Below are positions 36,129 to 41,423 of a DNA stretch of 64,000 nucleotides, one piece after another. Every line of letters starts with the position of its first letter. The stretch's first letter is position 1. Source of the DNA: Candidatus Aquicultor sp. (GTDB lineage: Bacteria > Actinomycetota > Aquicultoria > Aquicultorales > Aquicultoraceae). Where the stretch lies: positions 62,001 to 126,000 of the forward strand of contig DASXVE010000012.1 of the NCBI GenBank assembly GCA_036504445.1, written 5' to 3'. The notes below the pieces were generated by a model, which was given only the letters and a program-made list of their open reading frames with translations, did not search any database and was not told where the DNA came from. The position numbers were made by a program, and so were the translations under genes.

Positions 36129-37304
36129 ATGCCGGACATACGACGGGCGATAATTATTGTTTTAGATAGCGTGGGCGTTGGAGAACTGCCTGATGCCGCT
36201 TGTTATGGTGATGAGGGCAGCAATACGCTTGGCAATACGGCGCGCGCGGTTGGCGGGCTTAGCCTTCCGAATCTCGGTCGTATGGGGTTAGGTAATATAA
36301 TCGGCGTTGAAGGCGTGCCGCCCACGACAAACCCGGATGCATATTTCGGCAAAATGGCCGAGCTGTCGGTGGGCAAAGACACAACCACCGGTCACTGGGA
36401 GATGATGGGCATAGTGCTCGAGCGTGCGTTTCCAACATATCCGCACGGTTTCCCGCCGGACGTTCTTGAACCGTTCGAGAAAACGATAGGGCGGGGCACC
36501 CTCGGAAATAAACCGGCATCCGGTACCGCGATTATCGAGGAGCTGGGTCCCGAGCATATGAAGACGGGAAAACCGATTGTCTACACCTCAGCCGATAGCG
36601 TCTTTCAAATTGCTGCGCATGAAGAGGTCATTCCGGTCGAAGAACTGTATCGCATGTGCCAAATTGCCCGGGATATCCTACAGGGTCCGCACGCGGTCGG
36701 TCGTGTTATCGCCAGGCCGTTTATCGGCGAGCCGGGCGGTTTTAAACGAACGCATCGCAGAAGAGATTTCTCGTTGAAACCGCCTTCGAAAACGGTGCTC
36801 GATTACGCGCAAGAGGCAGGGTATTCCGTTTACGGTGTCGGCAAGATCAGCGAGATATTCGCCGGTCAAGGAATTAATGCAGCCGTTCACACCGAGAACA
36901 ACATGCACGGCGTTGATGAAACGCTGATTGCTATGGATAAACAAGAACAGGGCATTATCTTTACCAACCTGGTCGATTTTGATTCGCTGTGGGGCCACCG
37001 CAACGATGCGGAAGGGTACGCGCACGGGCTTGAAGCGGCTGATACCCGGTTACCCGAGATATTGGCTCAGCTCTCGGATGGTGACATCCTTATAATTACC
37101 GCCGATCACGGTTGTGACCCGACGACGCCGAGCACCGATCATTCAAGGGAATACGCGCCGCTGCTTGTGTACGGGCGCATGCTGAAAAACCCCCGAAGCC
37201 TCGACACCAGGCGAACATTTGCCGACATCGGTAAAACTGTCGCCGACCTGCTCGGTTTCGATGCGCCCGTTTATGGAAGCAGCTTTAAGGGCGAGCTTGT
37301 TTAG
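36129..37304 (+). CDS. deoB: Phosphopentomutase
   Basis: Interconverts (deoxy)ribose-1-phosphate and 5-phosphate, an alkaline-phosphatase-superfamily manganese enzyme. The 391-residue product has [13 protein letters not shown] at the N-terminus, KDTTTGHWE with the catalytic threonine, and the late metal residues in [11 protein letters not shown] and [12 protein letters not shown]. It works with the pyrimidine phosphorylase at 41710. Its last four bases overlap the end of the convergent DUF2267 gene. Confidence 0.95.
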
Positions 37305-37702
37305 GCGGCATTCCAGAGCTGCTGTATATCTTCCGGTAGATCGTGCGATATGTGCTCGACCTCTTTTGACGGGATCGCTCGTTTCAGCGTGGAAAACACT
37401 ACGTCGGCAAGACGCTGGGCTTCAGCGCTTGTCTTCACATCAGCAGCTTCGCGGACCTGCTCAATAAAGTCTTCTCTATCCAAATACCGGAGGCCTTGCA
37501 ACCAAGACATAACCCGCTGCATCCAGCCGCCTTCCCAAAAACGGTCGATATCTTCGGGAAGCGTATCGTAAACATCACGGATTTCATTTTTACTTAATTG
37601 GGAACGAAGCGTGTGAAGTATAGCGACAGTAATACGCTGTGCGTCTTCCTTGCTCAGCGACGCCTGTTCCATGATAGTATCTATAAATTCATCTCGCGTC
37701 AT
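37301..37702 (-). CDS. DUF2267 protein (tandem repeat)
   Basis: A 133-residue helical protein. Two homologous halves (about 1-65 and 72-133) each follow the pattern R(D/E)xFI...A......A......L...L....E......LP.DI...W, the DUF2267 signature: [12 protein letters not shown] and [12 protein letters not shown], then LPEDIDRFW and LPEDIQQLW. The function is unknown; such proteins are often small stress-linked genes. AAGGAG lies 12 bases before the start. It is convergent with deoB and divergent from the pseudo-ATPase gene. Confidence 0.82.
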
Positions 37703-37910: not shown

Positions 37911-37930
37911 AATCGTTTGCAGGGATGTTT

Positions 37931-40039
37931 ATGCAGAAAAAGCGGTCATATATCGAAGAAGCACAAGATAATTACATCATAAAGGGCTCCGGCAACTCAT
38001 CGGTCCCGACTTTAGAATCGGTGTATGAACTGCGGGTCGATCGAGCGTTAAACCTTACGGCGATAATTAAGACACTGCGAAACGCTTTTCTGGTGACCCT
38101 TGTAACATCGATGCTGATTATTCTCGACTCACCGATAAGCGAGCGCATGCTCGGTTTCAGAATTAGACTGCCGATTCCCGATGTCTACGTCCATCTGTTA
38201 CTGGCGACGATAGCGCTCATATTCGGGGGCATCTACTTCTTTAGAACAACCTGGCAGTCGCTGGCAAAAAGCAAAATCGACGCGTCGATTTTGACGTCGC
38301 TTGCGGTAGCGACCCTATACCTGTTCAGCATCGGCTCGATATTTTTCTTTGCCGGCGCAAATCTATTTTACGCGGCGACCCTCATTTTAACGTTTTCGCT
38401 CCTTGCACAGTGGATGAAATTTGTGGCGTGGAGACAGATAACCGGCTCAACAATATCACTGCTCGACGAGCTTCCTGCAATGGCCGATGTCGTGAGGGGC
38501 GAGGACATCGTAACCGAGCCTGCCCAGAAAGTGTACCCGGGTGACGTCGCGCTTGTGCGTGCCGGGGAAAGGGCACCCGTAGACGGTGTTGTAACCGAGG
38601 GAGAAGCCGCGATCGAGTGGTTACCGATAACCGGAAAAACCGGATCGGCGGTTGTTAAAAACGGTGACGAGGTGCTTGCCGGAAGCCGTTGCATCGACGG
38701 CGAATTCAGGATGGAAGCCACTAGGGTCGGCCAGGACACGCTCCTTGCACGTGTGGTTAATGCGGCCGATGCAGCGCAGCGCTCGCAACCCCAAGAGCAG
38801 GAGTTTATGGAAACCGCAATCTCATATTTTACCCTGATGGTGATTGTGCTGGCGGTGTTTGCATTTATCATCTGGGACACCGCGCTTGCAGGCGGTTTAT
38901 CGTTCGCTCTTATTATTGCGGTAGCGATTCTTGTGGCGGCAAGCCCCGAAGCGCTCAGCCTCACTATACCGCTCGTAGTATCTCTCAGCACCGGTTTTGC
39001 CGCGCGTCACGGTATCCTGATTAAAGACGCCGCCACCGTTGAACGGCTTACTCATACCAAGACGGTTGTTTTCGACGAGGTTGCATCGTTAATCGAAGGC
39101 GAGCCCCGGGTGTCCGACGTCTATCATGTCGGGAAGCTAACCGAGCCGGGCTTTATCAGGTTGGCGGCCAGTCTTGCTAAAGCCGGACAGATCCCGTATG
39201 CTGACGCGATTATCACCGCTGCGCAACAAGGGGTAGGGCGGTCGATTCCTGTCCCGGAAGAATTCGCTATTGTTACGGGTTGCGGGGCGATGGGAACAGT
39301 CGAGACGCGAAGAGTAATGCTTGGGAACAGGCGTCTCATGGTGGACCGGGGCATCAATATATTTGCCGTAGAGGAGCGTGCACGAGAATTCGCCGAGCAG
39401 GGCAAAACCGTCGTCTACGTGGCCGTAGACGATCGCATCGAAGGGATATTAGGAATTGAGCAAACGCTTGCAGCCCGTGCACGCGACACGGTTAAGGAGC
39501 TTCATTCGATGGGTTTGACTATCGTATTGCTGACGGGCGACGACAAGCATACCGCTCAGTCGATAGCGGAGAGACTCGCGCTGGATGAGGTATACGCAGA
39601 AGTGCTGCCCTCGGCAAAAGCCCAGACCATCAAAGAACTTCAGCAGCGCGGCAAGTTCGTGGCCGTAGTAACCCGCGGCACAAAAGATTCATCGACGTTA
39701 AAACAGGCTGATATCGGTATTGTTACCGGTGTTGGCACGGCTACCGATATGAGAGCGGGCGATATCGAGATCATCAACAACGACCTGGTGCAGTTGAGCG
39801 ATACATTCCTCACCGGTAAGAAGGTTGAGAGTAAGATACGGGAAAACAGCTACTGGGCCGTCGTATACAACATCATAGTACTGATCGTTGCAACAGGGGT
39901 GTTCTATCCAAGTTATCAAGTGTTTATTAGGCCGGAAGCCGCTGCGGTATTCATGGCTGCGAGTGCGGCGATGGTGATATTTAACTCACTTTCGTTGCGG
40001 GGGACGCTGTTTAGGTCGTTTAAATCTCTTCGGCTATAG
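37931..40039 (+). CDS. Degenerate P1B-type ATPase (pseudo-pump)
   Basis: A 702-residue protein with the full heavy-metal ATPase layout: four N-terminal membrane helices, an actuator domain, a helix pair, P and N domains, and two last helices with the typical YN (646-647) and NSLSL motifs. No HMA metal domain is present. Catalytic motifs are altered: TGE is TGK (234-236), the CPC of the ion path is SPE (338-340), DKTGT is DEVAS (382-386), SEHP is AGQIP (HP to IP at 421-422), TGDN is TGDD (535-538), and GDGxND is TRGTKD (581-586). Only the phospho-aspartate (D382) and the last Asp (D586) remain. The frame is open throughout. ATG 37931 is favoured by AGGG six bases upstream (ATG 37925 is also possible). 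Active transport seems unlikely; a regulatory, sensor or channel-like role is possible. Confidence 0.85.
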   Translation: MQKKRSYIEEAQDNYIIKGSGNSSVPTLESVYELRVDRALNLTAIIKTLRNAFLVTLVTSMLIILDSPISERMLGFRIRLPIPDVYVHLLLATIALIFGGIYFFRTTWQSLAKSKIDASILTSLAVATLYLFSIGSIFFFAGANLFYAATLILTFSLLAQWMKFVAWRQITGSTISLLDELPAMADVVRGEDIVTEPAQKVYPGDVALVRAGERAPVDGVVTEGEAAIEWLPITGKTGSAVVKNGDEVLAGSRCIDGEFRMEATRVGQDTLLARVVNAADAAQRSQPQEQEFMETAISYFTLMVIVLAVFAFIIWDTALAGGLSFALIIAVAILVAASPEALSLTIPLVVSLSTGFAARHGILIKDAATVERLTHTKTVVFDEVASLIEGEPRVSDVYHVGKLTEPGFIRLAASLAKAGQIPYADAIITAAQQGVGRSIPVPEEFAIVTGCGAMGTVETRRVMLGNRRLMVDRGINIFAVEERAREFAEQGKTVVYVAVDDRIEGILGIEQTLAARARDTVKELHSMGLTIVLLTGDDKHTAQSIAERLALDEVYAEVLPSAKAQTIKELQQRGKFVAVVTRGTKDSSTLKQADIGIVTGVGTATDMRAGDIEIINNDLVQLSDTFLTGKKVESKIRENSYWAVVYNIIVLIVATGVFYPSYQVFIRPEAAAVFMAASAAMVIFNSLSLRGTLFRSFKSLRL

Positions 40040-40658
40040 CCGCGCCGATACGCCGCATAGAGCCGAACGCAATACCGAGAGGTACGCCCGTCGCGACGAT
40101 TGCCCCAAGAAAAAACGACTCATCGAGCACATCGAGTAAGATAAGGTAACCGTTAAGCTCAACGAGCGCGAACTTCAAATCATCGCACTCAAGCTGTTGT
40201 GCGATCGTATATGTCCACCCGTTTTTATCCATGAGCCGGCGCATTGCGGTTGCAAGATCGATGTCGACATTTGCGACGCTCGAGATAACGTTACCGTCAC
40301 CATTAAACACCCAAGCGGCGATAATACCGTCGATCGAGGTAAGCTCACCCAGCTTCTCCGGGATAATAACGCTTGCGCCGTTCGAGATTGCCGCCGCGCC
40401 GTTTTCCATGTGCCCATTGCCGCTCGAATTTTGCGTGATTAAATTGATTTGTTCCTCGAGCTCGTCCGATATTTCAACATATGAGGCAAGCTTGTCGAGG
40501 GTTTCAGCGAGTTCTTCGCGTGCTTTTGCACGGTCATCGGTGAGACGGCGCATGTCGCGGTAGAGTACGGCGAGCAGCTTATCCACGTCGTCTCTCTTAT
40601 AGCCGAAGAGCTCACGACCTATTTCTATATCCTGCACTGCGTCGAATTCCTCATGCAT
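40020..40658 (-). CDS. DivIVA-like N-terminus with roadblock/LC7-like C-terminal domain
   Basis: A 212-residue soluble protein. Residues 19-29 (GYKRDDVDKLL) resemble the membrane-binding start of DivIVA-type proteins. A coiled coil follows (about 30-72), then a Gly/Asn/Ala linker (75-95). Residues 101-212 (SIDGIIAAWVFNGDGNVISSV ... LKFALVELNGYLILLDVL) look like a roadblock/LC7 fold, which in bacteria often partners small GTPases or polarity systems. It overlaps the 3' end of the pseudo-ATPase gene by 20 bases, tail to tail, and lies 12 bases after the LolA-like gene, so the two minus-strand genes form an operon. Function unknown. Confidence 0.6.
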   Translation of the reverse strand: MHEEFDAVQDIEIGRELFGYKRDDVDKLLAVLYRDMRRLTDDRAKAREELAETLDKLASYVEISDELEEQINLITQNSSGNGHMENGAAAISNGASVIIPEKLGELTSIDGIIAAWVFNGDGNVISSVANVDIDLATAMRRLMDKNGWTYTIAQQLECDDLKFALVELNGYLILLDVLDESFFLGAIVATGVPLGIAFGSMRRIGAAIAEEI

Positions 40659-40670
40659 CTCATCCTCGTT

Positions 40671-41423
40671 CTATTTTGCGCTTCCGGCTACAATGATTCC
40701 TTTACCAAGTTCAAATTCGGAAGGTGAAATGTTACCGGTCTGGACATAGTCCCAGCGCATAAAGCTCTTGCGACCCTCTCGCTCGCCTTCCCAAAGGGTG
40801 GGCAGCCCTTGTTTGTTAAACGTCAGCCTGGTGCCGGGCGCGTCGGGCGGGAACATCTCATCAAGCTGTTTTGTGCCCGTCGTGGCGGTATCGGAAAAAG
40901 CACCGACAAAAAACATCGCGCTCAAGTCGGCGAACGATGTTGCGGTTGCCGTTGCGACGATGCTTTGTGCCGCCGATTTGCTCGGTGTGTCGATAATCCA
41001 GATCACGTGCTTTGGAGCGCTAAAAATCATGACCTTTTGTTTTGAGGGGTTTTCAAAACGGTAGCTTCCGCCGCTCTGCGTCCACACCCCGTTAAACCCG
41101 GTTTGGGTGGTAATTCGCGCCTTAAATGAGGCATATTTTGTGGCGGCGACAATCTTAGAAAGATTATTACCGCTTTGTGCCTGGGTGCCGGTACTGGCAC
41201 TTGTGTTTGTTGCTGCGTCTACGGTTGTCGCCGTTGAGGTGTCTTCCGCAAGATTTGAGACAGGCGTAATGACAGTACGCTCGACGATTTCAAAAAGCGC
41301 CAGCGTTAAAGCCAGGGCAATGACGACGATAAGCGCACGGTTTATACCACGCTTCGGGCCTTGAGATCCGCCTCCAGGGTTAGCTATTTTCGATTTTGCG
41401 GAAGAAAAGAGATTAATAGCCAT
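40671..41423 (-). CDS. Membrane-anchored protein with LolA-like ectodomain
   Basis: A 250-residue protein: a basic cytoplasmic start, one transmembrane helix (about 29-48), a Thr/Ser/Ala linker (about 58-85) and a C-terminal beta-rich domain. YASFKARITTQTGF, then SYRFENPSKQKVMIFS and HVIWIIDTPSKSA, recall the LolA/LppX-type lipoprotein carrier fold, which has a hydrophobic cavity. The fold call rests on pattern only. It is the first gene of the two-gene minus operon. The 286 bases upstream, shared with deoA/pdp, show no further gene. Confidence 0.5.
   Translation of the reverse strand: MAINLFSSAKSKIANPGGGSQGPKRGINRALIVVIALALTLALFEIVERTVITPVSNLAEDTSTATTVDAATNTSASTGTQAQSGNNLSKIVAATKYASFKARITTQTGFNGVWTQSGGSYRFENPSKQKVMIFSAPKHVIWIIDTPSKSAAQSIVATATATSFADLSAMFFVGAFSDTATTGTKQLDEMFPPDAPGTRLTFNKQGLPTLWEGEREGRKSFMRWDYVQTGNISPSEFELGKGIIVAGSAK

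Follow-up and report, generated by a model that had tools for sequence, protein, structure and literature searches.

The window, i.e. the whole 64,000-nucleotide stretch of DNA analysed here, encodes a conserved P1B-type pseudo-ATPase that was probably retained as a non-pumping membrane protein, a reading to which we give a probability of about 0.7. Sequence comparison with four orthologues establishes the loss of catalytic residues, a single origin, conserved synteny, purifying selection and a set of residues conserved specifically in this clade. On these grounds, the clade is almost certainly catalytically dead, and the pseudo-ATPase is very probably functional and selected. It displays both marks of a pseudoenzyme, namely homology to an enzyme family combined with catalytic loss, and conservation across species under purifying selection. 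A preliminary description of the window had proposed that selection acts to preserve the fold rather than the pumping; the orthologues, the dN/dS ratio and the predicted fold, all of them checks that it had named, speak in favor of this proposal.

The window protein: P1B fold and broken motifs

The reading frame comprises 702 codons with no internal stop and encodes a 702-aa protein (Table 1). Two in-frame ATGs, at 37925 and 37931, are possible starts, with the stop at 40039; a Shine-Dalgarno-like AGGG (37921-37924) lies 6 nt upstream of the second, a spacing that favors 37931 over 37925. The protein matches the NCBIfam model TIGR01525 with 379.6 bits (cut-off 346.25) and CopA structures with an E-value of about 1e-100, the P1B-ATPase match spanning nearly its whole length. 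Its AlphaFold2 model has a pLDDT of 80.5 and a pTM of 0.72, and is aligned by Foldseek to CopA (7r0g) with a TM-score of 0.85. Note that the alignment supplied to AlphaFold2 consisted of the window protein and 12 distant relatives, mostly intact pumps, with the four orthologues left out; the predicted model shows compatibility with a P-type fold and is silent on state or ligands. From the profile match and the predicted A, P, N and TM domains, the window protein belongs to the P1B family in its ancestry and fold, though not as a working pump.

Table 1. Features of the pseudo-ATPase gene and its neighbors (window coordinates)
Feature	Position	Strand	Remarks and evidence
DUF2267 gene	37301..37702	-	Pfam PF10025; divergent from the pseudo-ATPase; also in G001 and G002
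Pseudo-P1B-ATPase	37931..40039	+	TM region and A, P, N domains, without N-terminal metal-binding domain; profile, AlphaFold2, Foldseek
TGE to TGK, actuator, residues 234-236	38630..38638	+	Alignment; Glu236 gone in all five orthologues
CPD to SPE, TM ion site, residues 338-340	38942..38950	+	Alignment
DKTGT to DEVAS, phosphorylation loop, residues 382-386	39074..39088	+	Alignment
HVGKLTEPGF, residues 399-408	39125..39154	+	Alignment; position from AlphaFold2 secondary structure
SEHP to GQIP, nucleotide site, residues 419-422	39185..39196	+	Alignment
GDGxND to TRGTKD, residues 581-586	39671..39688	+	Alignment
DivIVA N-terminus + weak roadblock/LC7-like protein	40020..40658	-	Pfam; convergent with the pseudo-ATPase
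Single-TM exported protein	40671..41423	-	Paired with the DivIVA gene at the locus

An open frame of 702 codons with nearly all catalytic motifs lost is what the preliminary description had reported, and both the ORF and the motif readings bear it out, as they do its list of altered (TGK, SPE, DEVAS, GQIP, TGDD, TRGTKD) and kept (actuator, YN) motifs. Its SPE at the ion site also stands, but the CPC ancestor that it assumed does not, since the nearest intact relatives are of the CPD type and the change is hence from CPD to SPE. The TGDN position reads TGDD (residues 535-538). Retained are GDVALVRAGERAPVDG and the YN at 646-647, the actuator GDxxxVRxGExxPVDG, which is intact, and the phosphorylatable Asp382.

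We then compared the motifs in the five carrier genomes, in the order window (G000), G005, G007, G004 and G009. TGE reads TGK, TGN, NGN, TGD and, in G009, is deleted; CPD reads SPE, GPD, GLD, SPN and GLD; DKTGT reads DEVAS, GKTGC, DKVSC, DKVSC and DKISC; SEHx reads GQIP, SKSD, SKDV, SDQP and SKSV; TGDN reads TGDD, TDDN, TGDD, CADE and TDDD; and GDGIND reads TRGTKD, SASSND, GNGLDD, GRRTHD and GNGVSD. Glu236, Cys338, Thr386, Glu420, His421 and Asp582, each of which is constant across the intact CPD pumps used for comparison, are missing from all five proteins. Throughout the clade, residue 338 is Ser or Gly, residue 340 is acidic or Asn, and Asp537, Asp586 and Ser678 are kept; the Pro339 of the CPx motif is absent from G007 and G009. 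The phosphorylated Asp382 is present in four proteins and replaced by Gly in G005, which, for this reason, cannot be phosphorylated at this position. An in-frame deletion at a direct repeat, ATGGTA, has removed most of the actuator domain from the G009 protein, which measures 594 aa versus 697 aa in G007. Each signature of a working pump, DKTGT, TGE, SEHP with GDGxND, and the CPx Cys, is thus wanting in the clade. Catalytic columns are retained at 45% versus 55% for the other columns invariant in CPD pumps; judged from these alignments, their special protection is gone and they are no longer privileged.

A P-type ATPase without the Glu of TGE, the Glu and His of SEHP and the first Asp of GDGxND is not expected to run the Post-Albers cycle. 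Residual phosphorylation would be formally possible, since Asp382 persists in four of the five sequences. The other P1B homologues read in the phylum, about 60 from many families, have intact motifs, minor variants like DKTRT (L091) excepted. Chance motif loss was rejected, the five syntenic orthologues being the only broken ones among the P1B homologues read in the phylum, and about 20 other short-ORF P1B matches, considered as independent pseudo-ATPases, turned out to be intact or to carry a single minor change (the same DKTRT).

Five orthologues at one locus

The family search covered 11 genomes in six genera, of which five genomes in three genera carry the gene, every copy being broken. 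Outside the source genome, the orthologues belong to four species in two further genera; the best matches to the window protein are those of G005 (40%), G007 (39%) and G004 (37%), plus the 594-aa gene of G009. The four syntenic orthologues are altered at the same motif positions as the window protein, but the replacement residues differ, DEVAS and TRGTKD not being shared.

In all five genomes, the gene lies between deoB/DUF2267 and the DivIVA-roadblock gene, within the shared order pyrG - pepT-like - DUF3866 - NUDIX - xerD - deoB - DUF2267 - pseudo-ATPase - DivIVA-roadblock / single-TM protein - deoA, where DUF3866 is our putative name for the gene between pepT-like and NUDIX. G007 has the DivIVA/single-TM pair in inverted orientation, and the stretch examined in G005 does not show the deoA side. 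The same locus without the pseudo-ATPase is found in G002; in the four genomes of genus g4 (e.g. L099:8831-9940), a fructose-1,6-bisphosphatase gene (FBPase_3) stands beside deoB and replaces both DUF2267 and the pseudo-ATPase; and G001 has DUF2267 without an adjoining ATPase up to the contig end. The DivIVA-roadblock neighbor is also kept in genomes devoid of the pseudo-ATPase. DUF2267, DivIVA-roadblock and FBPase_3 were therefore rejected as obligate partners, each being found without the pseudo-ATPase, and DUF2267 and DivIVA-roadblock name no partner for the same reason.

Some further features of the locus were observed. The first 40 residues of the DUF2267 protein also match the HU/IHF family (PF00216, 1.8e-7). 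The DivIVA-roadblock/single-TM pair (40020-41423) is fast-evolving, and the single-TM protein has no Pfam match, resembling LolA by eye only. In two of the three g5 genomes, an Nramp gene (PF01566) paired with a PRC/MgtE_N/CBS gene lies between this pair and deoA (L104:4984-7815 in G009, L059:12012-14826 in G007). In G000, an 80% homologue of this Nramp lies at another place (C34), and none turned up in G004, in G005 or in any of the six non-carrier genomes; its presence at the locus is suggestive of metal biology and not a proof of it.

Searches beyond the family returned no further member. With a clade profile, full-length members scored 1167-1202 bits versus 836 for the best intact pump, no other clade-like score being found in 396 genomes of the phylum and nothing clade-like beyond the family in 36 genomes of the class. 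Scanning genome contigs with the window protein recovered intact distant P1B pumps only, and matching viral contigs to the conserved peptides of the clade gave 27 pattern matches and no relative.

Relation to the intact metal pumps

The closest intact relatives are the CPD/MSAST-variant pumps near P1B-3, within the P1B-ATPases defined by TIGR01525; a CPD motif has been reported in Rhizobiales (PMC5552934). The pseudo-ATPase shares with P1B-ATPases the fold, the domain order, the actuator GDxxxVRxGExxPVDG and the YN, but lacks the Glu of TGE, the Cys of CPx, DKTGT, SEHP and GDGxND as well as a His-rich or MBD N-terminus, and has HVGKLTEPGF as a clade-specific element. In a 66-row tree, the five orthologues group together in a single clade (SH-aLRT 100), the sister group of which consists of CPD pumps, among them a pump of a different family within the order. 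This topology suggests that the pseudo-ATPase copy dates back to the origin of the family or earlier and was then lost in the other genera. The species tree built from neighboring genes, the base of which is weakly resolved, does not contradict such an old copy; note that the long branches of the clade could place it artificially deep in the tree.

The preliminary description had pointed to a possible intact P1B-ATPase elsewhere in the genome, and G000 (2.57 Mb, 34 contigs, 100% complete, 0.14% contamination) has four: two CPD-type pumps, 37% and 36% identical to the window protein, one CPC-type and one Zn/Cd-type. The pseudo-ATPase could be devoted to regulating the CPD-type pump or to forming a dimer with it; this pump is its closest paralogue, such a role is in line with a common logic of pseudoenzymes, and intact CPD pumps are indeed present in G000, G005 and G004. 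However, in G007 a frameshift near residue 606 splits the CPD-type pump (L063:1021-3383), which is either a real pseudogene or the product of a MAG assembly error, and none was found by the family search in G009 (98% complete), yet the G007/G009 pair is still under purifying selection. Conversely, G002 has a CPD pump without the pseudo-ATPase, and the two genes are not genetically linked. As two carriers have this pump frameshifted or absent, a sole role as its regulator is unlikely; the earlier suggestion of a regulator of an active pump keeps its place among the possible roles, with less force where that pump is the sister CPD one.

Comparison with other altered P-type ATPases

The closest known analogues are eukaryotic, namely human TMEM94/ERMA and, in Plasmodium GCbeta (PfGCbeta), a degenerate P4-ATPase domain. 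ERMA has a full P-type fold with a DKQGI loop, GSSANL in place of GDGxND and no TGES (PMC13322241, PMC12134183), and ATP-dependent Mg2+ uptake requiring Asp427 has been reported for it (PMC13322241), although another group has argued against its being a P-type pump (PMC12134183). The likeness lies in a P-type fold with an altered phosphorylation loop and a replaced GDGxND; ERMA differs in being eukaryotic, with ten TM helices and an ER location, and in keeping an Asp427 reported as essential, whereas the present clade is of P1B origin and has Gly at the phosphorylated position in one orthologue. In PfGCbeta, the P4-ATPase-like domain has lost most signature residues and was read as degenerated (PMC6592433); it likewise is a P-type unit with most signature residues lost, but belongs to the P4 class and is fused to a guanylate cyclase, unlike the stand-alone bacterial P1B protein described here. 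The same pattern of loss and yet retention is found in fungal Dis3/RNase II pseudonucleases, the fold of which is unrelated and which lost catalytic residues while the protein was kept for a non-catalytic role in RNA binding (PMC8097288).

Following the ERMA example, the clade could still transport actively in a non-canonical way, using its altered motifs and a different nucleotide site, an option consistent with Asp382 in four of the five proteins and with the acidic or Asn residue 340, Asp586 and Ser678 in all of them. The P-loop Asp that ERMA retains is present in the window protein but not clade-wide; with Gly382 in G005 and most of the actuator missing from G009, no Asp382 cycle can be common to the whole clade. 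Together with the loss of Pro339 in G007 and G009 and the disputed pump status of ERMA itself, this makes an active transporter a rather improbable alternative.

Purifying selection and clade-specific residues

We estimated omega with codon models (IQ-TREE); all comparisons but G007/G009 are synonymously saturated, so that the values are approximate. Omega is 0.136 for the clade, 0.043 for intact CPD pumps, 0.062 for deoA, 0.109 for DUF2267 and 0.173 for the single-TM protein. Within the pseudo-ATPase, omega is lowest in the two P/N segments (0.065 and 0.081) and among the highest in the actuator (0.169). For G007/G009, the sole unsaturated pair (dS 0.99), omega is 0.209, or 0.143 for the P+N region alone, omega = 1 is rejected at 2dlnL 169.6, and the differences at codon positions 1/2/3 number 124/82/257. 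Omega = 1 is also rejected for the window branch (2dlnL 36.4), the length of which is at the preset upper bound, making its point estimate of 0.05 unreliable. On the G009 branch by itself, omega = 1 is not rejected (2dlnL 3.4), and the G009 copy, with its A-domain deletion, may for this reason be relaxing.

Clade-specific conservation is most visible at HVGKLTEPGF, which in the AlphaFold2 model lies at the P-N hinge, past the strand exiting the P domain and opening the first N-domain helix. H399, K402, T404 and G407 occur in each of the five orthologues and in none of the intact CPD pumps of the comparison, the element varying only slightly (HIGKLTEPGL in G009, HVGKLTEAGF in G005). In a comparison of five clade with four intact-pump sequences, 19 columns show throughout the clade a single residue unseen in the pumps, four of these columns lying within HVGKLTEPG, with K417 following.

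These data weigh on the possibility that the gene is a decaying pseudogene, from a pump inactivated recently with a stop or frameshift still to come. Every catalytic motif is broken, G009 carries its deletion, omega in the clade is roughly threefold higher than in intact pumps, and the gene is absent from family genomes of three genera, as decay would have it. Against this stand four full-length copies without internal stops across three genera, the fifth having an in-frame deletion only, the same synteny in all carriers, the rejection of omega = 1 in the unsaturated pair and the clade-specific invariant residues. Decay is therefore very improbable, in agreement with the earlier argument that recent decay hardly accounts for the losses. 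A sequencing or assembly artefact, conceivable in multi-contig drafts, has a negligible chance, as independent genomes concur in synteny and open frame and the window genome is complete and hardly contaminated.

A possible origin and role

For a retained non-pumping membrane protein, we envisage the following course. In the family ancestor, a gene akin to that of a CPD-type (P1B-3-like) heavy-metal pump would have existed as a second copy; this copy would have shed the N-terminal metal-binding part together with the residues that serve phosphorylation, dephosphorylation and nucleotide gripping, and, once disabled, would have been kept as a non-pumping membrane protein. Its TM region would anchor it, while the P-N head, which is under the strongest constraint within the protein, would bind a partner or ligand with its HVGKLTEPGF hinge, the protein being a sensor, a regulator or a scaffold. 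Because the disabled protein is kept at the same locus under purifying selection, re-use as a membrane-bound regulator or scaffold is probable; binding or sensing is the kind of role suggested by this selection and by the residues that the clade alone conserves in its P-N head. That a membrane-anchored regulator or scaffold acts specifically through the P-N head is a tentative proposal, with slightly less than an even chance. More speculative is a pump turned receptor, in which the P-N head of a stand-alone bacterial lineage would have become a membrane-anchored sensor or signaling module with a new HVGKLTEPGF hinge and a dispensable actuator.

Our search of the open-access literature found no bacterial P1B pseudo-ATPase and no paper joining "P-type ATPase" with "pseudoenzyme". 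Annotation models score the clade proteins above cut-offs as "heavy metal translocating" or "copper-translocating" P-type ATPases, and these would thus be miscounted as metal pumps. Catalytically dead P-type ATPases have hardly been described, the analogues found being eukaryotic and, for ERMA, disputed. With a compact bacterial clade and living sister pumps in the same cell, a P-type fold without its cycle becomes testable.
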